A DNA stretch of 19,609 bases from the NCBI GenBank assembly GCA_030690875.1, contig JAUYFP010000031.1:1-19609 (forward strand), given 5' to 3'. The stretch is from a bacterium. GTDB lineage: Bacteria; Patescibacteriota; Patescibacteriia; UBA1558; GWA2-36-10. Each line of letters begins with the position of its first letter. Positions within the stretch are counted from its first letter, which is position 1. The translations under genes were made by a program, and so were the position numbers. Shown piece by piece: positions 3,086-19,533 of this stretch. The notes beneath the pieces are model-generated. The model was not told where the DNA came from and did no database searches. It saw only the letters and a program-made list of their open reading frames with translations.

Positions 3086-3162
3086 GGGCCGTTAGCTCAG
3101 TTGGCTAGAGCGCTACATTCGCATTGTAGAGGTCGGGAGTTCGACTCTCCCACGGTCCACCA
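3086..3162 (+). tRNA. tRNA-Ala (anticodon CGC), CCA encoded
   Basis: The acceptor strands GGGCCGT (3086-3092) and ACGGTCC (3152-3158) pair throughout and include a G3-U70 wobble, the main identity element of alanine tRNAs. The anticodon stem CTACA/TGTAG encloses the loop TTCGCAT, reading anticodon CGC for GCG codons. The T-arm is GGGAG-TTCGACT-CTCCC. Discriminator A and CCA are encoded (3159-3162). A short G+C-rich patch with repeated TTCG/CTTCG motifs follows at about 3173-3218. Confidence 0.97.
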
Positions 3163-3251
3163 AAGACGATTTGTCGCCTCGTTCGGAGCTTCGCCCCTCG
3201 CTTCGGCGGGCAATTCGGCCAGATAATTCCATAGATTTTTGAAATAAACAG

Positions 3252-3464
3252 TCATTTTTTCCGCCAAAATTTGGTTCTTATTATTCGCAAACCAACAAAA
3301 ACAATAAAACTAATACCTGACCAAACATGTAAATCTGTAATAAATGAATATTCTAACGATCCCCCTTTTATATAATTCATAAATAGAGGGATAGAAGTAA
3401 TCGCAACGATAACAAAACTTAAAATACATAAAAATTTAATCGGTTTAGATGTTTTGTTGTTCAT
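3252..3464 (-). CDS. Small two-helix membrane protein (DUF4405-like)
   Basis: 70 residues with two hydrophobic helices (about 10-28 and 46-63) and a basic C-terminus (RTKFWRKK). The second helix starts DLHVWSGISFIVFVGLRI, a His-x-x-x-Gly pattern that resembles the haem-ligand-type helices of DUF4405/cytochrome b-like small proteins. That resemblance is weak. It is the last gene of the minus-strand ABC operon, 48 nt after the ATPase stop, and may be an accessory of the exporter or unrelated. Confidence 0.6.
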   Translation of the reverse strand: MNNKTSKPIKFLCILSFVIVAITSIPLFMNYIKGGSLEYSFITDLHVWSGISFIVFVGLRIIRTKFWRKK

Positions 3465-3512
3465 ATTATTTTATTTAATTGTTATCTATTTTTCTTAACT
3501 TTATTCCTTTTA

Positions 3513-4193
3513 TTATTTTGATAAAATTATATCCTTCTCAATTCGTCCATCACGTATATAAATCATTCTTTGCGCCATTTTTGCAAATTCTTCTTCGTGC
3601 GAAACCATGATAATTGTTTGTCCCTCTTGGTGTAACTGAAGGAGAGCTGACATTAAATCGTGAGATCTCGCGGTATCCAAACTTGCTGTTGGCTCATCAG
3701 CAAAAAGAATTTTTGGCTTTCTTACAATCGCTCGAATTACGCTCACGCGTTGCATCTCGCCCCCTGAAAGCTGACTCGGCAAGTGATCAATTTGCTTAAG
3801 CATGCCGAAAGAGGTAAATATTTTAATGGCCTCATGTTTTGCTTTTGCATAATTATCCCCAAGCATCAAGCTCGGTAGTAGGGTATTCTCCAACGCAGTA
3901 AATTCAGGAATGAGCGCGGAATCCTGAAATACAAAACCAAAATTTTTCAAACGAAAACGCGTCGCTTCAGCTTCTTTAAAATGCGATACATCAATTCCGT
4001 CAATAATAATTGATCCGCTTGTGGGTTTATCTAAGAGACTTATTTGATACAATAGGGTGGATTTGCCAGCTCCAGACGGTCCCATTATAGAAAGAAATTG
4101 ACCCTCCGGCACCTCAAGATCAATGCTTTTTAAGACATTGGTGACAATATCACCTTTTATAAAATTTTTTACTATTGCTGTAACTTTAATCAT
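3513..4193 (-). CDS. ABC transporter ATP-binding protein, LolD/MacB type
   Basis: 226 residues, a single complete ABC ATPase domain. Walker A is GPSGAGKST (about residues 38-46). The Q-loop sits in FVFQDSAL, the signature is LSGGEMQR (about 142-149), Walker B is ILFADEPTASLD and the switch histidine is in MVSHEEE. The closest type is the LolD/MacB/FtsE class, which works with FtsX-like permeases, and exactly such a permease gene lies 12 nt upstream. The complex probably uses ATP on the cytoplasmic face to drive movement of its partner's extracytoplasmic domain, for export of lipids, peptides or antimicrobials. The substrate is unknown. Confidence 0.95.
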   Translation of the reverse strand: MIKVTAIVKNFIKGDIVTNVLKSIDLEVPEGQFLSIMGPSGAGKSTLLYQISLLDKPTSGSIIIDGIDVSHFKEAEATRFRLKNFGFVFQDSALIPEFTALENTLLPSLMLGDNYAKAKHEAIKIFTSFGMLKQIDHLPSQLSGGEMQRVSVIRAIVRKPKILFADEPTASLDTARSHDLMSALLQLHQEGQTIIMVSHEEEFAKMAQRMIYIRDGRIEKDIILSK

Positions 4194-4205
4194 AATTATT
4201 AATTT

Positions 4206-5474
4206 TTATCTTCCTAAAATAGCGTCAAGCGTATTTTGCCGAATAATAAGCCAGGCGGGAATGAATGCTGAAATAATCGACGATATAAATAACACCACAA
4301 CGCGTATTGAGACATATAGCGATGTGAGAAGTAATTGCCCATCCGCCATTGGCAAAGAGATAGGATTTTTCATAAAATATGGCTGTAAAAAAACAAAAAG
4401 CGCAATCAGGCCAAGAATCACACCAACCGCTACATAAAAAATGATTTGAAAAACATAAGACAAAATAAGCGTTGGCGCAGAAATTCCTTGTGCTTTTAAA
4501 ATGCCAAGATACCTTCGGCGACTCGATGCATTGACATATATAATGACAAAAATAGTTATGACGCCGACTAGCAGAGCCGTGACGCTAACGATATTTCCAA
4601 TTAACCTAAAAGCTTTTTTAAGATCGCCGACTGCCGAAGGTATTGCTTCGTCGGATGATTTTATATCATTCCTATCTCCTCTTGAAATACCCCTCAATTC
4701 TTTAATAAGTGATGTGGAGCTTATATCACCGCCTGTGACAACCGCAATTTCCGAATAATCATTTCCTTGCTTTGAAAGTAATTGGCGCAGTATTTTTTGA
4801 TTTATGAAAGCTCTTTGATCAACTGTTGACGATTTAGAGTTTAAAATGCCAATAACGGTAAATTCGTATAAATTATTGTTTGAAAAACGAATACGAACCT
4901 TATCCCCAATTAACACGTGTCCCAATGATGCCTCACTACCCGTCTTACTTGATATATATCCATCTACCAGAGACGATCCTAACACAATAGAATCCCAATT
5001 TTCATCAAGAAATGACCCGGCAATAACGCGCTGGTCTATGTTGGTAACTCGTGTTTCAAGAATAGGTTCAAGCCCAGCTATTACCGCGCTTACTCTCGAT
5101 GGATTTTTTCCACCAGTTACATTTTTATACTCATATTCTATACTCACCCCGCTTGTTAGTCTTGGGGAATAGTGGACATTAGGAACCCCATTGAGAAGGG
5201 AAAAAATATCACCCGTGTTTTGGATGTAGTTGTATTCTTTCGCCGGTTCAATAAATATATCGCCGGTAAGCGAATCTTTCACTTTAACGCCAACATCTTC
5301 GGTAATACCAACGAGAAGCCCTCCCACCACTATGAGATTAAGAAAAGTTAACAGTAAAATAAAAACTGTGACGAATTTTACTGTTAAAGAACCACGCTGA
5401 ATACTCTTAGACGCAATAAAAAATGCAGTGCGTATAATAAGTCTTAAATTGTTTGATTGTATAGGCATATACAT
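4206..5474 (-). CDS. ABC transporter permease, MacB/FtsX-like
   Basis: 422 residues in the MacB/FtsX topology. One N-terminal helix (about 30-55) is followed by a large extracytoplasmic domain (about 56-290, MacB periplasmic-core type) and three helices near 296-320, 338-365 and 385-410, ending in a short tail with the common 'ixxxxxxDAILGR'-type finish. Start choice is open between ATG 5474 and ATG 5468; neither has a strong ribosome site. It lies 18 nt after the PadR gene and 12 nt before its ATPase, so the three are very probably one transcript. The family includes macrolide exporters, lipoprotein-release systems and bacteriocin-resistance pumps. Confidence 0.92.
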   Translation of the reverse strand: MYMPIQSNNLRLIIRTAFFIASKSIQRGSLTVKFVTVFILLLTFLNLIVVGGLLVGITEDVGVKVKDSLTGDIFIEPAKEYNYIQNTGDIFSLLNGVPNVHYSPRLTSGVSIEYEYKNVTGGKNPSRVSAVIAGLEPILETRVTNIDQRVIAGSFLDENWDSIVLGSSLVDGYISSKTGSEASLGHVLIGDKVRIRFSNNNLYEFTVIGILNSKSSTVDQRAFINQKILRQLLSKQGNDYSEIAVVTGGDISSTSLIKELRGISRGDRNDIKSSDEAIPSAVGDLKKAFRLIGNIVSVTALLVGVITIFVIIYVNASSRRRYLGILKAQGISAPTLILSYVFQIIFYVAVGVILGLIALFVFLQPYFMKNPISLPMADGQLLLTSLYVSIRVVVLFISSIISAFIPAWLIIRQNTLDAILGR

Positions 5475-6149: not shown

Positions 6150-9100
6150 ATGGAAAAATTCACACCAGAAAAAGAAATATCCGTAAAACAAGGGGAAATC
6201 CATCCAGAGGGTCAAGAGCTCCGTCGAGAGCCCTTGCCTGAATTAGAGTTGACCGAATTACTTAAATCTGAAAAACCAATTAATACAAAAGAAGGTCAGA
6301 AATTAGAGATAGAAGTTCTTCGTCCTTGGAATAACTACACAATCGTTACTCTTGATGGTTCAGATGAAATTCAGATTTTTGATGAAGATGCTTATGTTAT
6401 TCCGGAATTCAAGAAACCTTTGAACAGTAAAAAAGTGACTGTAAACTGGAATAGCCCTGAGGTAAGAAATAAGCTTGGCCAACAACACCACTATATTGGC
6501 GACGACACTAGATCATCTAATGACACTATAAATATATCTCAGGTGCCTTTGGAGTTAAGGGGTTTCGCCAAAGCTGTTTTAGCTACTAAAAATACTGATG
6601 AATTTCCACTAAGAGAAGAGCCAAAGAAAGAATCCACTGCGTCAAATGTCATCATTTTAGATAAATATATCATACTAACAACAAAGGACGGTGGATATTT
6701 TGCCTACGTTACTCGAAATGAAAATGGTATTGTTCTTGCTCCGCAAAACTGGCAGAGAGTTGACTATACAAAACCAATACCCCCGGAACTTAATAAATAT
6801 GCGGAGATAATCTTGAGAGAGAACGAGGGGTATCAACAGATTAATGAAAAATATTCCGCACTTGTTACTGACGTCGGTATAAATATTGTAAAAAATGAAG
6901 AGACTATGGGTGCGCCATTGTTTTCTGACAACGTTCCGTCTATAGAAAAAAATATTACAATTGATCCAACAAATCCTAATATTATTTACTACTGTCAGAG
7001 TAGCAATCCTCGAAGTATTAGACGAATTGACCTCAGCGCAGAACCGAATACTTGGGGAGCGATCTCGGCCGAACTCCCACAAAAATACGAGAGTATTAAC
7101 AATCTCCAACTCGATCCCTCTGGCAACTTCTTCTTATTTTACTCTAAAGAGGACTTAGTGATGGTTACCAAAGACGGTCTAGAAGAAGTGAAAAGAGTTC
7201 CTAAGCTATCTCAGGTAAATTTCGATGCCACAGGAAGAATACGCGCGGTAGATAAGGATGGGCACCTTGTTATTTACGAACCTAATTTCGATGAATTAGC
7301 TCAAGAGATGGATAAGCAGAGGGTAGCAAAACTAGCCCAAGGTATAAAAATTGTCGACATATTCGAATTGGAAGCTTCCAAAAAAGCATTAGGTCAAAAA
7401 GGCGGAGAAGGACTTGAGTATCTAGAACCGCTTCGAACTCAATACGAACAGCAGTTTACCGAGGTACTGGCAAAAATAACTACTCCAGAAGGAGCTCAAC
7501 AGCTTAGGAAAGGTTTCAATAAATTAGCTGAAGCATTAAAGCAACAAGGGCTCAAACCAAATGAAGTCACATTTATTATTTCCGGACTTGAAGGGCCTAT
7601 AGAAGCAAAAGAGAAAGAATTCGCTATCAAGAGTACCCAAGAAGCACTTGTTTCTGTACGAGCAAAACTTGCGAGCGGACTTTCTATCTCCTCTGTGTCA
7701 GAAGCGCGCGCTGAAATGGAAAAAATTAGAGCTACAGAAGCATTGTTAGAGGGAGATTTACGTCAAGAAGTACATGAGATCGCGTTAGAGCTTGAACAAA
7801 GATCCCTAGAACTTTTCCGACAACGTGGTGGTGAAATCATTAAGGATATTCATGGCCTAATTGAAAGAACCAAGACAGATCTTGAGGGCTTTACTAGCAA
7901 GTCGCAAATGGATGACTGGCTTGAATTTCGTTACCCGCAACTTAAATCAAGATTGGGTTCTTTGGCTAAAGATGTTCCCCTTGAAGCAGATGAGGCTTAT
8001 AAAGCTATTGTTGCGGCACGGACAAATCTACAAGCCATTGCTTCAGCGTTTGAGGATAAATTCAAAAGAGAGTATGCCAAAGTGAGAGAGAAGGCTTCGG
8101 AGCGCATAGGGGCAACGGTGGATATCTTGGCGCAAGATGTTGACGGACTAATTGAGCGTCTGCGAACTAAAGGTTTTACCAGTCGAACTGCGGCAGAACA
8201 ATATTTGTCTTCAAGCGACGCTAAAAAAACGCTGGAAACTGAAATTGCTGGACTAGCTGGAGACAATCCTGATGTAGCAAAAGAGTTAGAAAGAGGTTTG
8301 AAAGTAAGAATCTCTAACACACTAACGGAAATAGAGCGTGGATCACTTACTCGAGTCGCTGAAACCGGCCAGCAAATGGTTATGTTTGGTGAGACAGCTT
8401 TTCCTAAATGGGAAGCTAAAGTTAAAGAAAAAATGGAGTACAAGGTTGATCTAACGTTTGAAGAGGATGCAAAAACACATGGACCTGGCGTAAAGGCTGG
8501 AGATATTCTTGGAGATGTTTCGATCTCTATTCAGACCTCTACGGGAAAGGTAGAAAAGGTTCGGCTTTATGAAGGATGGCAAGATGAAAACGAATGGCGT
8601 CTTGGTCTTTTGACTTATCGCGGAGAATCCATCCCTCCTTCTTACCTAACCGCCAAAGAATTTAAGGACATTAGAAAAGAATATGGAGATTGGGCACAGG
8701 GAGAAAAATCCAATCTCAGGAGAGAACTGCAAGAAAAGAGAGACACATTAAAAGAAGTTTATTCGAGACGACAAAAAGTCGGAGAAAGAACTCCAGATAT
8801 AGATAGTGTGTGGCAAGAAGAATACAAAACAAAATTACAGGAGTACGCTACATTTGCCACCGAAAATCACATCTCCCTGTTAAGACGTATTGATCAAATC
8901 AAGTCGGAGCCGGAAATTGAATATACAAATGGTAAAGGATTTATACCCGAGTGGCAAAGCCATTGGGTTATGGATCGACAAACCGAGACTGATTTGGAAG
9001 AAATGGCGAAAGCATTAAAGATGCAACTGGATTTACAGGAAGGCTTGGTCAACTTAAAAGGACACGCCGGTACTGGTAAAGATGTGCGTATAAAAATGTT

Positions 9101-10013
9101 TAGCTCGCTCACTAATCGTCCTTACTTTGGAATCGATGGCACGAAGTGGACTACCGAGTTCGAGCTGTCAGAAGATGTCATGTTGGAATCTAAGGACGGT
9201 GCCTCTCAGACGGTGAAAGTGCCTTCGGCAGTATTGAATGGTATTACTACTCCCGGAGCAATTGTTTACTTCAATGAATTCAATGCGATGCCCGAACAAG
9301 CGCAAATTTTCCTACATGCTCTTATGGATGAGAAACGTTCGTTAACACTCAAAACAAGTTCCGGTAAAACTATTCGTGCATTGCCGAATGTCCTACTGGT
9401 CGGTTCTATGAACCCAAACTACCCCGGAACATTTGATCCGCAATTTGCTACTCGAAGTCGCATGGTCTCATTGGAAATCGGTTACCCACCGCTTACACGC
9501 AAGGCTGATGCAGGAGATCGAAACCCTAATGCACCTTACGATGCTTCTGAAGCGTTGCGCATAGCTCGAGGCGTTGATTCTCTAGCCAATCTAACATACG
9601 AGGCCAGCCTTGAACGCAATGAGTATGTGAAAATGTGGGATAAATATATCAACGGTATAGACAATGGCGCACCAGAGCCGACAGGAACGCAAAAATTCGA
9701 TATAGATGTTTCCCTCGCTCTTGTACAGTTTGCCAATAACCTCCGAGAGAGCTTCATTAAAATCTTTGAGAAAAGTCATGAGGCACGAAATACCTTACCT
9801 GTTTCTCAACCGATCACTGGTCGAGAACTTCGTCGCGCGGCTTATGCTCTTAGTAAAATGACCCCGGAAGAAAAAGCAACTGCAAATCCAGAAGGTGTGG
9901 CCCGAAACCTCCTTAATAAATATTTCTTAACTCACATCGACAAAAAGGAAGATCAGGACAAAATTCGCACAGCAATGAGCACATGGACTTCTAAGAAACG
10001 TGTAAGAGCATAA
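6150..10013 (+). CDS. Giant MoxR/CobS-like AAA+ ATPase with beta-rich N-terminal region
   Basis: 1287 residues. Residues 50-150 are a charged, beta-rich lead. About 160-376 reads as repeated short strands ending in G/D turns (NLQLDPSGNFFLFYSKEDLV; VNFDATGRIRAVDKDGHLVI), like a degenerate beta-propeller. About 380-740 is helical and coiled-coil-like, and 760-830 is another beta segment. The AAA+ module starts near 950: Walker A GHAGTGKD (971-978), Walker B AIVYFNEF (1037-1044), sensor-1 GSMNPN (1085-1090), a candidate arginine finger in FATRSRM (1099-1105) and a sensor-2-like GRELRRA (1224-1230). The SxNP sensor and layout fit the MoxR/CobS/NorQ class. The usual Thr/Ser after the P-loop Lys is Asp, and the Walker B Asp is Asn. 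No signal peptide or membrane helix is seen. It lies 4 nt before the VWA gene, its likely partner. Confidence 0.85.
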   Translation: MEKFTPEKEISVKQGEIHPEGQELRREPLPELELTELLKSEKPINTKEGQKLEIEVLRPWNNYTIVTLDGSDEIQIFDEDAYVIPEFKKPLNSKKVTVNWNSPEVRNKLGQQHHYIGDDTRSSNDTINISQVPLELRGFAKAVLATKNTDEFPLREEPKKESTASNVIILDKYIILTTKDGGYFAYVTRNENGIVLAPQNWQRVDYTKPIPPELNKYAEIILRENEGYQQINEKYSALVTDVGINIVKNEETMGAPLFSDNVPSIEKNITIDPTNPNIIYYCQSSNPRSIRRIDLSAEPNTWGAISAELPQKYESINNLQLDPSGNFFLFYSKEDLVMVTKDGLEEVKRVPKLSQVNFDATGRIRAVDKDGHLVIYEPNFDELAQEMDKQRVAKLAQGIKIVDIFELEASKKALGQKGGEGLEYLEPLRTQYEQQFTEVLAKITTPEGAQQLRKGFNKLAEALKQQGLKPNEVTFIISGLEGPIEAKEKEFAIKSTQEALVSVRAKLASGLSISSVSEARAEMEKIRATEALLEGDLRQEVHEIALELEQRSLELFRQRGGEIIKDIHGLIERTKTDLEGFTSKSQMDDWLEFRYPQLKSRLGSLAKDVPLEADEAYKAIVAARTNLQAIASAFEDKFKREYAKVREKASERIGATVDILAQDVDGLIERLRTKGFTSRTAAEQYLSSSDAKKTLETEIAGLAGDNPDVAKELERGLKVRISNTLTEIERGSLTRVAETGQQMVMFGETAFPKWEAKVKEKMEYKVDLTFEEDAKTHGPGVKAGDILGDVSISIQTSTGKVEKVRLYEGWQDENEWRLGLLTYRGESIPPSYLTAKEFKDIRKEYGDWAQGEKSNLRRELQEKRDTLKEVYSRRQKVGERTPDIDSVWQEEYKTKLQEYATFATENHISLLRRIDQIKSEPEIEYTNGKGFIPEWQSHWVMDRQTETDLEEMAKALKMQLDLQEGLVNLKGHAGTGKDVRIKMFSSLTNRPYFGIDGTKWTTEFELSEDVMLESKDGASQTVKVPSAVLNGITTPGAIVYFNEFNAMPEQAQIFLHALMDEKRSLTLKTSSGKTIRALPNVLLVGSMNPNYPGTFDPQFATRSRMVSLEIGYPPLTRKADAGDRNPNAPYDASEALRIARGVDSLANLTYEASLERNEYVKMWDKYINGIDNGAPEPTGTQKFDIDVSLALVQFANNLRESFIKIFEKSHEARNTLPVSQPITGRELRRAAYALSKMTPEEKATANPEGVARNLLNKYFLTHIDKKEDQDKIRTAMSTWTSKKRVRA

Positions 10014-10017
10014 ACTT

Positions 10018-13000
10018 ATGGAACGTCCCAGCGAATTTAATGAGTCGCCTCCGCAAGAAAAAGCAAAACTATCAAAGCTCACTCGTGAGATGCTTTTTCT
10101 GGCTGAACAAGCTACTGAAGGCAGATTAAAGGTTCTCCCCGGTAAAGAGTGGTCTTTGCATCATCCGGCGGGTCAAGCCACTCGAGCGGAAAAACTTCAG
10201 GGTTTACTGGATGGTAGATATACTGCCAAAGAAGTTGCCCATGATATTACACCCGACGCGCTTTTTTATAATGCTGAGGACATTGAAAAAGAAGGTTTAG
10301 AAAAAGTTAGTGGACGTATACGAGACCTTTCTGCATTCATTACGCATTATGACTATCCTAGATTCGCTCAATTCGTAGAAGGCATGCGTGGTCATGATAT
10401 TCCTCTAGACGATCTGGACAACCTTTATAGCGATGTTACTCAAGCAAGAGTTCAAAAAAAAGTAATGGATTCTTATGGACATACAGGCCGAAAACAAATG
10501 GAGGAAGCTCTGCGGACTGAAGCAAGCAGTACGATTGAAAGTATCAGCAATCTCCCTCGATCCCAAAAAGTGCTCAAAGCACTCAAAGTTAACTGGCTAA
10601 GTGAAGACTTGGGTCTTGTTGGGATGGAAGAACGGGATCGTGTTATCTCTGAACTTTCAGGAGACGAACGTAAACTTTTTGAAGACCTTCAGCCCTCATA
10701 CCGAGACTACATACAGAGGGGAGACGAGAGTGGGTACAAAAAACTAACAGATACGGTACGGGAGGGTTTGCCGAAAATTCAAAAAGAGGCCAAAAGCGGT
10801 GAGCCGAGTGAAAGTATGCAGGAACTTGAAAAAGAGCTTGAGCAATACAAAGAACAGGCTGTCCCTCCGGGCTCTCCAGAAGATCCTGCCATTCCTCCTG
10901 AAGATCGAGATGAATATCACACTCCACCACCAGCACCGGGTGAGTCAAAAGAAAAGATGCAAGTCAGACCTATCTTTGAAATTGATCCTGCGCTTGGTGG
11001 ATATTATGCGAGTGGCAGAAAAAGTTATTACGATATTGAATCAAAAACGTGGAGCAAGAAAAAACAGCTTTCCCCATATAATATTTCTATTACTGGTAAA
11101 GATCGTTCCACAATTTCAGGAACCTTGGATAATGGGGTCAAATCTCTTCCGCTCCCAAACGGTTATGCATTGGATGTATCTTCTTTGAAAGCCGAGGGAG
11201 CTAACGTGGAAATCAGGCGTGATCAAAATGGATGTTTTTATCTTGAGGTTAGTGGGACCGGAGCATTTTCAATAGATTTCCTATCTGAGCAGAATCCTTT
11301 TCCTGGAGCAACAATTCCGGAAGATATGTCACCCCTCCATCGGGGATCATTTTCATCAAAGACAGAAGCAACCCTCTCAAAACTTATAGGATCACCCATA
11401 CAAAAAGCTGAACAGACACGGCAATACATTTTAGCCAATCATTTTTATCCCGGAGGCGGAGATCTACAAAAAGCCCAAGCGTTACAGTATAAGTTGCGAA
11501 GTGAGTCCACCGGCGATAACTACCTCCAAAATATTGATCAATCGGAATATTTGGAATGTTACTCTGCCAACACTAAATTTATTGCCATGATGCGTAAAGC
11601 AGGTATCCCGGCGCGTCTTGTAATAGGACATAAAGTTGAGGGGGCAAAGGATGGCAAATCAGCTATTACTCAAAGCACTGGCCACGCCTGGTCGGAAATT
11701 TGGGACGGAAAAGCATGGAGGCGTTTTGATGCTACTCCTAATCCAAAGCCCGAGGATCAGAAAAAATCCGCCGAAGACGATAAAAAATCAGACAAAGAAT
11801 CTGCAGAGGAAGCGCAGGACGGAGGCATTGATAAACCACAGGAGAAGGGAGACAAAGATGGTCAAAAAGGAGAGAGCCAACAACAAGGCAAAAAACAAGG
11901 ACAACAGCAAGGATCGGAACAATCCTCGGAGTCTGGAAATCCCTTAGACCAAATGTCTGATGCCTCTGATGGCGAGATGCAAAAGTCTGAATCACAACTC
12001 CAAGAAGCGAAAGAGCAAATGGAGAAAATGGAGCAACAAAAACAGCAACTCAATGACAAAGTGCAAAATGCAGAAAAATTCAAAGAGCTTTCCGAACTTC
12101 AAAAAGAAGTAGAAGAGAGCGAACTTTTTGACGACTTAAAAAAGGAACTTCAGGACAAGTTGGACGCAAAAGAAGATCAGATGAAGGACAAAATAAAAGA
12201 TGAGCTTGATAAAATGGTTGAAGATGGCTTCATGGATGAAAAAAAGCGAGACGAAATTTTACAGGAGCTCGAACAAAAAAAGCTGGAAGAACTTGATCGA
12301 GTTCAAAAAGAAGTTGAGCAGGAAAATAGACTTTATAACGAGTACGAAGATATCCGGGAGGAGCTTGCGCCCTTAGTCGATAAATGGTTTAAGTATTTTG
12401 CCGAACGGCTACCACGACAAGAAGAAGTCGGTTTTGATCAGGATTCATTAACTCGACAAGGAACATTTAATCGACGAGCTGTAATGAAAACCAGAAACTT
12501 ACTTTTTGGGACAGTAAAAAATCCTCGGGAAATTCATCCTTCGATCAAACCTCGATTTATGGCTTCCATTTTGGTGGACGTGTCTGGTTCTATGGCAGGA
12601 GAAAAATTACAAAGCGCTCAAAAGCTTCTCATATTTTACTCTGAATTATTCAGTCGTATTTCTCAGGAGTTTGGTTACATTAAATTTTCTATAGATACTT
12701 TTTCTGATTCGGTAACTGAAATAAAGGGGTTCAAACAAGATTACGACTCACCACAGAGATATGATTTTGAAGATGGGACACAGTCAACTGTGAAAGTCCG
12801 GTTAATGCAAAGACTCGCTACTCAAGGTGGTACGAATATGCTCGATGGTATCAAAAAAGCGGCGAGCGAGTTAAACAAACAAGTTGAAGAATATCCCGAT
12901 TATGCCTCTGCGTTTTATTTTGTTGGTGACGGTGGTGATACTCATGGCAATGCGGCGAACATAACCAGATTCTTACAGGTAAATGAATCAGAGCGTGGAT

Positions 13001-13179
13001 TCGGTGAGCATATGTATTCCGCTATCCTACTTGGTAACGAATCCCAGCGTAAAGAGTTGGCGGAAATCTTTGGAGATGAGCACACTAATGTTGCGCCTGA
13101 CTTTGATGAGCTTATAGAAAAAAGCATGGATAAATTTGACGAAGATTTGAAAGAGTATCTGAAGACAAAAACTCAATAG
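10018..13179 (+). CDS. Transglutaminase-like / VWA fusion protein
   Basis: 1053 residues. Residues 1-280 are helical and unrecognised. A proline-rich spacer (280-315) precedes a beta-rich region (316-430). The transglutaminase-like domain (about 460-575) shows Cys514 in ECYSANTKF, His556 in TGHAWSE and Asp571 in RRFDATP, the complete triad. Residues 575-790 are a Q/K/E/D-rich linker passing into coiled coil. The C-terminal VWA domain (about 845-1040) has a full MIDAS: Asp854-x-Ser856-x-Ser858, Thr939 and Asp971. No signal peptide or membrane helix is seen, so it is probably cytoplasmic. The ATG is 4 nt after the upstream stop. AAA+/VWA pairs act as remodelling chaperones or metal insertases; the transglutaminase domain could crosslink, deamidate or cleave proteins. 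Domain calls are firm, biological role unknown. Confidence 0.9.
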   Translation: MERPSEFNESPPQEKAKLSKLTREMLFLAEQATEGRLKVLPGKEWSLHHPAGQATRAEKLQGLLDGRYTAKEVAHDITPDALFYNAEDIEKEGLEKVSGRIRDLSAFITHYDYPRFAQFVEGMRGHDIPLDDLDNLYSDVTQARVQKKVMDSYGHTGRKQMEEALRTEASSTIESISNLPRSQKVLKALKVNWLSEDLGLVGMEERDRVISELSGDERKLFEDLQPSYRDYIQRGDESGYKKLTDTVREGLPKIQKEAKSGEPSESMQELEKELEQYKEQAVPPGSPEDPAIPPEDRDEYHTPPPAPGESKEKMQVRPIFEIDPALGGYYASGRKSYYDIESKTWSKKKQLSPYNISITGKDRSTISGTLDNGVKSLPLPNGYALDVSSLKAEGANVEIRRDQNGCFYLEVSGTGAFSIDFLSEQNPFPGATIPEDMSPLHRGSFSSKTEATLSKLIGSPIQKAEQTRQYILANHFYPGGGDLQKAQALQYKLRSESTGDNYLQNIDQSEYLECYSANTKFIAMMRKAGIPARLVIGHKVEGAKDGKSAITQSTGHAWSEIWDGKAWRRFDATPNPKPEDQKKSAEDDKKSDKESAEEAQDGGIDKPQEKGDKDGQKGESQQQGKKQGQQQGSEQSSESGNPLDQMSDASDGEMQKSESQLQEAKEQMEKMEQQKQQLNDKVQNAEKFKELSELQKEVEESELFDDLKKELQDKLDAKEDQMKDKIKDELDKMVEDGFMDEKKRDEILQELEQKKLEELDRVQKEVEQENRLYNEYEDIREELAPLVDKWFKYFAERLPRQEEVGFDQDSLTRQGTFNRRAVMKTRNLLFGTVKNPREIHPSIKPRFMASILVDVSGSMAGEKLQSAQKLLIFYSELFSRISQEFGYIKFSIDTFSDSVTEIKGFKQDYDSPQRYDFEDGTQSTVKVRLMQRLATQGGTNMLDGIKKAASELNKQVEEYPDYASAFYFVGDGGDTHGNAANITRFLQVNESERGFGEHMYSAILLGNESQRKELAEIFGDEHTNVAPDFDELIEKSMDKFDEDLKEYLKTKTQ

Positions 13180-13250: not shown

Positions 13251-13337
13251 GCCGAAGTGGTGAAATTGGTATACACGCATGGTTCAGAGCCATGTAGTCG
13301 CAAGGCTGTGGAGGTTCAAATCCTCTCTTCGGCACCA
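13251..13337 (+). tRNA. tRNA-Leu (anticodon CAG), CCA encoded
   Basis: The acceptor strands GCCGAAG and CTTCGGC pair fully, with discriminator A and encoded CCA (13334-13337). The anticodon stem CATGG/CCATG encloses TTCAGAG, anticodon CAG, for CUG leucine codons. A long variable arm (TAGTCGCAAGGCTGTG) marks a class II tRNA. The T-arm is GAGG-TTCAAAT-CCTC. It starts 71 nt after the VWA gene stop, with no clear terminator between. Confidence 0.97.
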
Positions 13338-15102: not shown

Positions 15103-16275
15103 ATGAATAGAAACCAAAAACATCTAAATTATATAGACACGGTAAATCTCGGCTCTTACTATACGTCGGAGATTATTGTTGATTTAGCTTATTCTATTTT
15201 ACAAAAAAATGTTCTAGATATTAAAGACTTTACAATTTTAGATTCATCTTGCGGTTACGGTTCATTTTTAACAAAAAAAAATATTGCGAAAAGATTGATT
15301 GGTGCTGATATTGATGAAAAAGCTATCTCTGAAGCAAAAAAAAGAATTGATAATGTGGATTTTATCTACCAAAATTCACTTGCAAATGTTTTTCGGAAAA
15401 ACCTGGCGATTGAAGATAATGAAAAACTTATAGCCGTAGGTAATCCGCCATATAACGATACAACTTCTATAATCCGCAATTCTATAAAAGATGCTTCTGC
15501 TCAACATAAAATTGATTCTGATATTAAAACCAGAGATTTAGGAATGTCTTTTTTGCTTTCTTACAATAAGCTTCAAACGGATTATGTTTGCGTTTTGCAC
15601 CCACTGTCTTACCTAATAAAGAAAACAAATTTTGCCTTGCTCTCAAAATTTACCGAAAACTATAAATTAATTGACGGAATAATAATAAGCAGTCATGAAT
15701 TTTCTGACACCTCTCGCGGAATGGCCTTTCCCATCTTAATAGCTCTTTATAAAAGAGATCAGAATGGGATGACTTATAATTACATTCAAGATTATCAATT
15801 TAAAGTAAAAGATGATAGCCTTTTTCGTTTAAAAGATTTTGACACTATAGTTAATTATGTTCAAAAATATCCAAATAAAAAATATTTAAATAAAAATGAT
15901 AAACCAGTAGCAAAATTTTGGACTTTAAGGGATATAAATGCGCTTAAGCGTAATCGTACTTTTATCAATTCTGATACTTATAACACCGTTTACATATTAA
16001 TGGAGAAGCTTCCATATTATTGTTATATTGATGTTTTCAAACAATATGCAGATAAAATGCCGTATTTTATTGGAAACTGCGATGTGATAATTGATAATAA
16101 AAAATTTAATGAGATAAAAGAATGTTTTATTTCCCAGAGTGTTCACACAAATCCCATTTTAAAAAATAAATTTAAATTTAGAGAAATTCCTAATGCTAAA
16201 CTAAAAATAGAAAATTATTTCAAAGAATTATTAGGGAGTAAATTAGGTGAAAAATATGCCAAAAATTTTGATTAA
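15103..16275 (+). CDS. Type II N6-adenine DNA methyltransferase
   Basis: 390 residues of the adenine-specific class. Motif X lies in LGSYYTSE (16-23). The AdoMet-binding motif I is DSSCGYGSF (47-55), motif II follows in GADIDE (68-72), and catalytic motif IV is GNPPYND (113-119). The C-terminal half should hold target recognition. The start is well placed by the promoter only 6 nt upstream. It overlaps the restriction gene by 20 nt, so the modification protein is made first from a shared message. If the partner is an R.PabI relative as proposed, the expected target is GTAC with methylated A; that specificity is inference from the family. Confidence 0.92.
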   Translation: MNRNQKHLNYIDTVNLGSYYTSEIIVDLAYSILQKNVLDIKDFTILDSSCGYGSFLTKKNIAKRLIGADIDEKAISEAKKRIDNVDFIYQNSLANVFRKNLAIEDNEKLIAVGNPPYNDTTSIIRNSIKDASAQHKIDSDIKTRDLGMSFLLSYNKLQTDYVCVLHPLSYLIKKTNFALLSKFTENYKLIDGIIISSHEFSDTSRGMAFPILIALYKRDQNGMTYNYIQDYQFKVKDDSLFRLKDFDTIVNYVQKYPNKKYLNKNDKPVAKFWTLRDINALKRNRTFINSDTYNTVYILMEKLPYYCYIDVFKQYADKMPYFIGNCDVIIDNKKFNEIKECFISQSVHTNPILKNKFKFREIPNAKLKIENYFKELLGSKLGEKYAKNFD

Positions 16276-17017
16276 AGAACAGGAACATAAAATTAAAGTA
16301 CCGATATCATTAACTGCTGTTAGCGGAAAAATTCGTGTTAAAAATCGCTCGATTGTGAATGAATATGGAACACCGGTTGCAGTTAAGCGAGATGGGTTTG
16401 CTTTAAATAATTATGTTGAATGGCAGATCGGTTACGATGTTGTTAAAAAAGAAGTTGAAAAACTCGCAGAATCATCGTTACCAGAGACTGAATTCACTGG
16501 TGCAAACGGCAAAACCAAAGCGCTTTATGAATTATCAGAATATATTTGGTATTTTTATAAATGGACTATAATATCCAGAGAAAAATTAGAGGGTATTATT
16601 CATTATCTTAATTCAATACCAAGTAATGACTTGATTGATAATAATTCTGGACTGCAAATTGACCGTAGTCACCCGATAGCAAAAAATATAAATGGATTTG
16701 ATTTTGAATATACCCAGGTTAAGTACCCTCTTTTAATTCACAAATTTAATGGATACGAAATAGTTACCGAAATAAAAATTACCGAAAAACAATACGCAGT
16801 CGGCACGCAACCAATGCTATATTTATGTTTTCCAATCACAGAATTAAAAGCGAGAACCAATTTAATTGGACGAACCGCCGAAACAAAAGAAATCGCCCAG
16901 TTTGAAATTACGGAAAGCAACATCAAAGTATTCTTAGAAATGCTAAAAATGTTTGGTACTCTATCTAATAGTCATAAGCATGATATCTTGCAAATTATAA
17001 ATGCAATCTTGGCATAA
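16256..17017 (+). CDS. Type II restriction protein, probable R.PabI family DNA glycosylase
   Basis: 253 residues from the ATG at 16256, chosen because AGGTGA (16245-16250) sits 5 nt before it; a GTG at 16247 would add three residues. Position straight after a DNA adenine methyltransferase marks it as the restriction partner. It lacks a PD-(D/E)XK, HNH or GIY-YIG motif. It shows SGKIRVKNRS near residues 23-32, Glu55 with Tyr60 in VEWQIGYDV, and His240 with Asp243 in SHKHDIL 11-14 residues from the C-terminus. The Glu-x4-Tyr and His-x2-Asp spacings and terminal location match what I recall of the R.PabI catalytic residues (Arg32, Glu63, Tyr68, His211, Asp214). R.PabI excises adenine from GTAC instead of hydrolysing the backbone. 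Family assignment rests on motif recall only. Confidence 0.7.
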   Translation: MPKILIKEQEHKIKVPISLTAVSGKIRVKNRSIVNEYGTPVAVKRDGFALNNYVEWQIGYDVVKKEVEKLAESSLPETEFTGANGKTKALYELSEYIWYFYKWTIISREKLEGIIHYLNSIPSNDLIDNNSGLQIDRSHPIAKNINGFDFEYTQVKYPLLIHKFNGYEIVTEIKITEKQYAVGTQPMLYLCFPITELKARTNLIGRTAETKEIAQFEITESNIKVFLEMLKMFGTLSNSHKHDILQIINAILA

Positions 17018-18817: not shown

Positions 18818-19417
18818 TTACTTGCGACAGGCGAAGACGAACCGGTGGCCAGCACTGCAGAAGCCGCCGGGACTGGCATAGCTGGCACTGAGCCACAGAC
18901 CACTGCCAAGGCGTTCGACAGCGAAGGTGTTGAGGTCGCCGTCCGAATCGCGAATGGCTTCCATGGCCAAGTAGAGTACTTCGCCCTTGGGCTGATCCTT
19001 GTACTGCAGACGCAGTTGCGGACCATGCTCGGGCTGACAAAGATCATGTCCGAGTTCCACACCACGCTTGCAGACGTCCGAGTAGGAAGCTCCGCCCTCG
19101 AAGCCAAGCTCGGCTACGGTCAGGGTAACGAGATCCACTTCGATCAGCTTACTCGAAACCTTGAAGGCCGACTGGTTCAGCAGATCGCTGGCCCAGTCAC
19201 CGAGCTTCATGCCAGACTTCTTCAGAGCCTGACGGAAGTCGTCGGCGGACTTGAGTCCGGTGCCGAGCTTGATGGTCTTGAAGATGGCGAAGGCCTTCCT
19301 CAAAATTTCCTGCAACCCCTTGGGGTTGTCGATGTGGCGTTGCATGGCCTCACCCGACATTTCGGGCAGATTCTGGCAAACCACAGCGGCAAACTGGAGA
19401 ACTTGCTTGATTGACAT
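18818..19417 (-). CDS. Conserved hypothetical protein of a type seen in CPR genomes
   Basis: 199 residues from the ATG at 19417, preferred because AAGGA stands 9 nt before it; an upstream ATG at 19477 adds 20 basic residues. The N-terminal half is helical (SIKQVLQFAAVVCQNLPEM; NPKGLQEILRKAFAIFKTIK; ADDFRQALKKSGMKLGDW). The C-terminal half is beta-rich: GPQLRLQYKDQPKGE, then YLAMEAI, and an end in HRFVFACRK. I recall similar proteins as recurrent uncharacterised genes in Patescibacteria, often with the same high G+C; that recollection is unverified. No catalytic motif is evident. It converges on the gene ending at 18398, and each has its own strong terminator, so both look like stand-alone units. 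Confidence 0.8.
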   Translation of the reverse strand: MSIKQVLQFAAVVCQNLPEMSGEAMQRHIDNPKGLQEILRKAFAIFKTIKLGTGLKSADDFRQALKKSGMKLGDWASDLLNQSAFKVSSKLIEVDLVTLTVAELGFEGGASYSDVCKRGVELGHDLCQPEHGPQLRLQYKDQPKGEVLYLAMEAIRDSDGDLNTFAVERLGSGLWLSASYASPGGFCSAGHRFVFACRK

Positions 19418-19533
19418 GGCGCTTTTTCCTTTTGGTTTTCGCCTTTTGCTATCTGACAACCAGGAATTGGTAGTCATAGCCAGAAATAACCGATTTCTGT
19501 AATTTTGAATATTTTTCAGAATCTCCAGCTAGA

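Follow-up and report, generated by a model that had tools for sequence, protein, structure and literature searches.

Rea1/Midasin is a single giant protein with multiple AAA+ modules that serves ribosome assembly. The NorQD and CbbQO systems, to our knowledge, have neither a propeller nor a transglutaminase, keep canonical Walker motifs and act on a dedicated client enzyme. PA2875 and PA2874 of Pseudomonas are presumably MoxR and DUF58 proteins. They form an operon with TgpA, which is predicted to span the membrane with six helices and places its transglutaminase (TG) domain in the periplasm (PMC3507681). In the MoxR-vWA conflict systems, described in 2020, the core pair is a MoxR AAA+ ATPase and a protein with a von Willebrand factor A (VWA) domain. 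It is joined by a third component, which is VMAP, iSTAND, FtsH or a propeller protein; propellers and, rarely, transglutaminase-like peptidases are among the parts, and diversity-generating retroelements (DGRs) are attached in many systems (PMC7159879). Here we describe a pair of genes, A and B, from the 19,609-nt contig JAUYFP010000031.1 of a Patescibacteria draft genome (718 kb, 69% complete). The whole contig is referred to as the window.

The two giant adjacent genes proposed by a first-pass annotation of the sequence were confirmed as open reading frames (ORFs) at the positions listed in Table 1. They are arranged in tandem with 4 nt between them and encode proteins of 1287 (A) and 1053 (B) residues. 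The pair is real, is undescribed as far as we have searched, and is a variant of the MoxR-vWA kind; its mechanism is one that we infer. Loci are coded L and homologous proteins P, each with a number. Family I is the family of the window's A-B pair and family II is its sister family.

Protein A ends in a AAA+ domain that matches Pfam AAA_5 above the cut-off (residues 969–1105, E 3e-11). Among predicted-structure comparisons its closest folds are CbbQ and NorQ; the NorQ-NorD and CbbQ-CbbO structures (PDB 9qh4–9qhg, 6l1q, 5c3c) give the best matches for this domain and are among the best for the VWA domain of B. An insert within helix 2 of the core AAA+ domain defines the MoxR clade (PMC7159879). 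In A, a β-hairpin lies between helices at residues 1008–1025, as read from the secondary structure of the model without superposition. The profile and fold matches place A in the MoxR clade and bear out the annotation of a MoxR/CobS-like domain at its C-terminus. The predicted structure likewise supports the propeller-like region assigned to the ATPase, since the N-terminus of A is modelled as a WD40-like β-propeller. The VIA lists barely probe the helical part of A and residues 1–282 of B, and the fold statements leave these segments aside.

Protein B is a member of the transglutaminase-like superfamily, with a Cys-His-Asp triad within a TG fold. Residues 482–572 match Pfam Transglut_core above the cut-off (E 2e-11) and the predicted fold matches TgpA. 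The VWA domain scores slightly below the Pfam VWA_2 cut-off (residues 851–960, 25.1 bits against 27), and the match of its predicted fold to Rea1-MIDAS and NorD supports the assignment despite this sub-threshold profile. All the catalytic and metal ion-dependent adhesion site (MIDAS) residues named earlier as lying on one chain are present and close to invariant. Of the 120 B homologues listed, 112 have at least 1000 residues; 111 of these retain Cys514, P0042 having a Tyr, and all 112 retain His556, Asp571, Asp854, Ser856, Ser858, Thr939 and Asp971. Hydropathy revealed no membrane segment in A or B of the window, and a 19-residue stretch with a mean Kyte-Doolittle value of at least 1.6 occurs in only 2 of 240 retrieved homologues of the two proteins. 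By this measure both partners appear soluble, as had been proposed, and B lacks the membrane helices that surround an exported TG domain in TgpA; unlike TgpA, it is a soluble TG fused to a VWA domain.

The nucleotide-binding site of A deviates from the MoxR clade, in that the canonical Ser/Thr of Walker A and Asp of Walker B are both replaced. Asp978, Asn1042 and Glu1043 are invariant in all 110 aligned A homologues of at least 1200 residues (of 120 listed). We compared 55 Walker pairs, read in 36 loci that belong to the window's genome or to its relatives; most of the pairs are in Clp-like proteins with two P-loops. Thr/Asp was found in 45 and Asp/Asn in three, namely A and the first AAA+ domains of two Clp-like proteins (L104 and L122), whose relatives drift at both sites. 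The Asp/Asn exchange is thus uncommon; where it turns up outside A the domain seems degenerate, and in the A family it is fixed. The aligned motifs of family II are GEGGTGKS (Walker A) and LDEF (Walker B); Ser/Thr is present in Walker A of all nine family II ATPases read, and the Walker B Asp was seen in six and missed by the search pattern in three. Two MoxR-vWA systems carry GXXXTAKS where A has GKD (PMC7159879). With Asp978 and Asn1042, the carboxylate that binds Mg would sit in Walker A instead of Walker B, Glu1043 staying in place, and hydrolysis would then be altered but not plainly lost. We favour a working, rearranged Mg site, since Glu1043 and the remaining core are kept; alternatively, the domain may be a nucleotide-binding scaffold. 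The invariant exchange is a well-defined problem of P-loop chemistry that can be put to the test.

Table 1. Features of the A-B pair in the window and of the family II locus L081 (last two rows, positions in L081).
Feature	Positions	Strand	Basis
Gene A: propeller, helical region and MoxR-type AAA+ ATPase	6150..10013	+	
A 46–380: WD40-like β-propeller, fastest-evolving segment of A	6285..7289	+	predicted fold
A 381–740: long helical region	7290..8369	+	structure model
A 741–850: small β-rich domain preceding the AAA+ module	8370..8699	+	structure model
A 969–1105: AAA_5 core	9054..9464	+	Pfam, fold match
Walker A GHAGTGKD, Asp978 at the Ser/Thr position	9060..9083	+	
A 1008–1025: β-hairpin, read as the MoxR-clade helix-2 insert	9171..9224	+	model secondary structure
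Walker B VYFNE, Asn1042 for Asp, Glu1043 retained	9264..9278	+	
Gene B: soluble transglutaminase-VWA fusion	10018..13179	+	
B 283–576: β-sandwich and transglutaminase core, TgpA-like fold	10864..11745	+	
Cys514 of the B triad	11557..11559	+	
His556 of the B triad	11683..11685	+	
Asp571 of the B triad	11728..11730	+	
B 577–770: disordered linker, then long helices (probably a coiled coil)	11746..12327	+	
B 771–1053: VWA with complete MIDAS (Asp854, Ser856, Ser858, Thr939, Asp971)	12328..13176	+	
tRNA-Leu, 71 nt past B	13251..13337	+	
L081 AAA+ gene	8273..11377		
L081 repeat region, template near the variable repeat	11705..11825		

The pair shares with the MoxR-vWA systems its core of a MoxR ATPase and a vWA protein. 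It differs from them, besides the P-loop, in three respects. A constant third component is present there and none was seen around A and B. The propeller there, when present, has about four blades and is C-terminal to the vWA domain or on a third protein, whereas here it is N-terminal on the ATPase and B ends with the VWA domain. Finally, TG here is N-terminal to VWA on one chain. No description of this layout was found among the open-access papers searched, as judged from their listings and from passages of PMC7159879, PMC8195603, PMC10907252 and PMC3507681, preprints being outside the scope of the search. The earlier statement that no such system was known therefore stands for the exact layout; the MoxR-vWA systems and the TgpA operon are nevertheless related kinds.

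The gene-neighbourhood survey suggested by the first-pass annotation found the two genes together and not apart. A and B are adjacent and in the same order in all 11 loci that hold both positions, separated by −1 to 81 nt as measured from mechanical ORF ends (A reaches the contig start in L059 and L060, and L013 and L015 begin inside B). All 11 thus show the adjacency of MoxR and vWA genes seen in MoxR-vWA systems. In L013 the composition of the scaffold shifts past an N gap downstream of B, at about position 2620, and the scaffold is probably chimeric. A blastp comparison of 159 neighbouring ORFs from 14 loci, in which several contigs are one-sided and divergent genes could be missed, found no third gene recurring in at least three loci. 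Six neighbours recur in two: FtsW-like, FtsZ, a translation GTPase, a TraG-like protein, one unknown and an ABC-ATPase stretch.

Outside these loci the pair is scarce. The protein searches retrieved 206 and 158 relatives at E 1e-3 (about 8000 candidates scored and 120 listed for each). Those with a visible lineage name are all Patescibacteria, also known as the candidate phyla radiation (CPR), except P0128, which is labelled Syntrophomonadaceae. A sample of the phylum contained a full-length member in one of 379 genomes (1904 bits, the next best score being 98 bits) and any profile match in 44. Matches were present in 4/380 genomes of the window's class and 5/373 of that of L015; in the order of genome G977 members were found in 3/82, one of them merely 36% identical. 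A same-genus genome, 98% complete, lacks the pair. L016 (9047–10555) holds a remnant of B, its last 184 residues, next to a serine recombinase encoded on the other strand and with no A. A divergent B-like protein, 36% identical, is encoded in L080 (437–3178), a 3-kb contig without a partner ATPase. A paralogue in the window's own genome was sought and rejected: the sole weak VWA match stands beside a different AAA_5 gene (contig C98). L049 (3–3378) is a second pair of VWA and AAA_5 genes in the window's own genome, only weakly related, with the unusual P-loop GKTSTSKT.

Comparison with RpoB indicates how the pair has travelled. Relative to the window, the identities of B, A and RpoB are 88, 75 and 52% in L011, 79, 71 and 57% in L010, and 72, 66 and 53% in L012. 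In L060, from a genome of the same class, they are 49, 44 and 67%. The corresponding values are 51, 44 and 53% for L014, 63, 63 and 66% for L059, and 58% (B) and 52% (RpoB) for L015, with no A value for the last. L009 was left out, since RpoB was not found in its genome. The identities of A and B to the window rise and fall together across loci. The conflict between gene trees, as in L011 with 88% identity for B against 52% for RpoB, argues for horizontal spread, and the sequences thus point to a rare pair that has moved between Patescibacteria lineages. As a raw count, 4/11 loci (window, L010, L011 and L012) have a tRNA gene no more than 1 kb from the module. The cluster of tRNA-Leu/Pro/Ala, an aminotransferase and tRNA-Ser that surrounds the module in the window is present in a genome of the same family in a differing order, without A or B. 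In the window, L010 and L012 the pair has no flanking repeats of 22 nt or longer. A 65-nt direct repeat brackets it in L011, but this is no proof of insertion because two further, less similar copies exist in that genome. The GC content of the pair differs from that of its flanks in no constant direction.

The propeller and the N-terminal tail are the least conserved parts of A. Between the window and L009 the propeller is 58% identical, against 94% for the AAA+ domain and 88–93% for the domains of B; between the window and L014, the helical region of A is slightly less identical than the propeller. Synonymous rates are saturated in many domains, so the case for exchange rests on how often identical residues use the same codon. 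For the window and L009 this is 96/217 in residues 1–380 of A compared with 483/769 in the remainder (p 1e-6) and 641/927 in B; for the window and L011 it is 89/200 compared with 430/734 in the remainder of A (p 4e-4). The low-codon stretch between the window and L009 extends beyond the propeller, to about residue 480. Agreement between L009 and L011 is even (0.65, 0.66, 0.62), and the three pairs with L010 give p of at least 0.06. Because silent divergence is raised only at one end of the window's A, these sequences point to replacement of its propeller end by a more distant allele rather than to fast selection alone. Both significant pairs include the window, so they may record one event. 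Across 5995 protein pairs, 42 combine a AAA+ identity of at least 0.9 with a propeller identity below 0.55; in 32 the propeller is the closer by more than 0.05, many of these via P0170, a possible chimera.

The stronger secondary matches of the phylum survey are soluble TG-VWA proteins of family II, about 840–970 residues long if complete. Their loci are L081–L086, L091–L096 and L098; counts omit L082 (a 4-kb contig) and do not include L097, where phmmer found no TG-VWA protein. As in family I, a gene for a soluble TG-VWA protein stands with one for an AAA_5 ATPase, and the domains are homologous: hhalign aligned the sandwich and TG with a probability of 99.9 and E 1e-34 (B 302–578 only) and the AAA+ cores with 95% and E 2e-8. 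The VWA halves of the two families failed to align with hhalign, and Pfam VWA matches in family II are below the cut-off. In its distant members the residue patterns used fail to pick up a number of the triad, MIDAS and Walker B motifs. The gene order differs, with TG-VWA preceding an ATPase of about 690–1050 residues, and in five of the ATPases a C-terminus diversified by DGRs takes the place of a propeller. The partner was recognised in 8/11 loci (L081, L083, L086, L092, L093, L094, L096 and L098) and not in L091, L095 and L085.

Family II ATPases are in part diversified by DGRs. A reverse transcriptase (RT) and an adenine-biased repeat pair occur in 8/11 loci, and the differences between repeats fall on template adenines in 18/18 positions in L081, 18/18 in L093, 11/12 in L086 and 23/26 in L092. 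L091 has an RT fragment only, L098 neither RT nor repeat pair, and L085 and L099, the other contig end, have none. The AAA+ gene itself ends in the variable repeat in five loci (L081, L083, L092, L093 and L094), which gives these ATPases a diversified C-terminus. AAA-CLec fusions are the commonest DGR targets in CPR (PMC10907252, citing earlier work). We found no report of a DGR linked to a TG-VWA partner; the papers retrieved, in their available sections, concern other MoxR-vWA systems and a Thermus genome.

Taken together, the pair is self-contained, mobile and patchy, the recognition part of the ATPase varies in both families, and the cytosolic enzyme is intact, which argues for recognition and response over a housekeeping chaperone. 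We therefore propose, tentatively and at somewhat less than even likelihood, that A and B form a self-contained cytosolic recognition-response machine that has spread horizontally in Patescibacteria. It would most probably be a conflict system, aimed at phages or other elements and of the type formed by MoxR and vWA proteins. A would assemble into a hexamer like those of NorQ and CbbQ, with its propeller recognising a target. The VWA domain of B would dock on or near this ring through the MIDAS metal, as NorD and Rea1-MIDAS do. Nucleotide-driven remodelling could then expose or position the Cys-His-Asp site of B, which would cleave, deamidate or crosslink a cytosolic protein. A broader view, possible though doubtful, holds that cytosolic receptor machines of this design in Patescibacteria carry recognition on the AAA+ protein and the enzyme on the TG-VWA protein, with family I swapping WD40 propellers beside a rearranged Mg site and family II hypermutating the C-terminus.

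Neighbouring genes of defence type are present at some loci. In L015 a UG19-type RT (3143–5404) lies 91 nt downstream of B and a Toprim/DnaG-like protein (6569–8224) also lies downstream. A 627-residue ATPase in L059 (9068–10948) matches MADS mad3 (E 9e-83) and mad8, and a TraG-like protein in L014 matches mad8. A type II restriction-modification system lies about 1.9 kb downstream of B in the window. A number of observations weigh against a conflict system. Clear defence neighbours are few, with the RT and DnaG-like partner of L015 among 72 scanned (25 of 52 families listed), and the L059 ATPase has a P-loop stretch of ABC type in common with the ABC ATPase of the window, so that its match is possibly a broad one and the protein may instead be an ABC-type transporter. 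PADLOC gave no match for A and weak ones for B. The RT with adenine-biased variable and template repeats that marks a DGR is not seen in family I: the repeat pair is absent from 14/14 loci, a genome-wide template not having been searched for, and an RT is present in L015 only. The codon deficit of the propeller is missing in four of six locus pairs. B identities in L014, L015 and L059 are near those of RpoB and uninformative on transfer. A viral or phage carrier was rejected, because neither the 33 nor the 44 candidate stretches from viral contigs held a relative; the pair thus has no known carrier element. Finally, division or cell-wall genes are near the pair in 5/14 loci, and in two of these the pair is directly beside ftsA or ftsZ.

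These last neighbours raise the alternative of a cytosolic regulator of cell division or wall synthesis, in which B would cleave or modify a division protein under the control of A. In the Microgenomates-type locus L075 (6617–14944), MurG, an FtsW-like gene and FtsA (at 42 nt) lie upstream and FtsZ downstream, and in L077 (128–8304), of the same type, FtsZ lies 56 nt downstream. L010 has a penicillin-binding protein and a Mur ligase upstream, L009 an FtsW/RodA gene 1.9 kb downstream and L059 an FtsQ-like gene 1.4 kb downstream. A VanW/peptidoglycan-binding protein lies 0.8 kb downstream in L076, and L060 has a weak FtsA-like match. None of 13 comparison loci (11 from family II or from genomes matched in the phylum survey, plus L061 and L099) has such neighbours, against the 5/14, but this comparison is biased because the marker proteins were taken from the same loci. 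L075 and L077 share one order and their FtsZ proteins are 77% identical, so they may share one insertion. FtsZ is on the pair's contig in only 3/12 genomes, many of them drafts, and in one it is about 22 kb away; 7/14 loci have no division or wall neighbour at all. TgpA, the nearest match for the TG fold of B, is an envelope protein and essential (PMC3507681). The absence of the pair from about 99% of the surveyed relatives argues against a division role, and we regard this explanation, the main rival, as unlikely.

A further possibility is a chaperone or maturation pair that remodels a host enzyme or loads its cofactor in the manner of NorQD or CbbQO, with TG as a processing peptidase. Systems of the latter type adjoin the genes of the enzyme that they serve, yet no neighbour of A and B recurs in at least three of the 14 loci, and a patchy distribution and a fast-evolving propeller are ill suited to a fixed client; we consider this explanation quite improbable. 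Least credible, and very improbable in our view, is a selfish addiction pair in which A restrains a harmful B and thereby keeps the module in the genome, for although two genes have moved as a unit and the catalytic site is cytosolic, the proteins are very large and highly conserved and the B fragment of L016, albeit one without the catalytic domain, persists without A.

Further downstream in the window, the restriction-modification genes (15103–17017) follow tRNA-Ser and encode an R.Pab1-like endonuclease and a methyltransferase. Long ORFs overlap on both strands at 18818–19477; the ORF on the minus strand has no Pfam match.

If the recognition-response reading of A and B is correct, bacteria with genomes of about 1 Mb devote 7 kb to a mobile machine that couples a sensor to an enzyme. 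Tying a soluble transglutaminase to a AAA+ ring would make for an unusual kind of regulated enzyme. The design would then have two branches that reach receptor diversity in different ways, one by domain exchange and the other by retroelement hypermutation.

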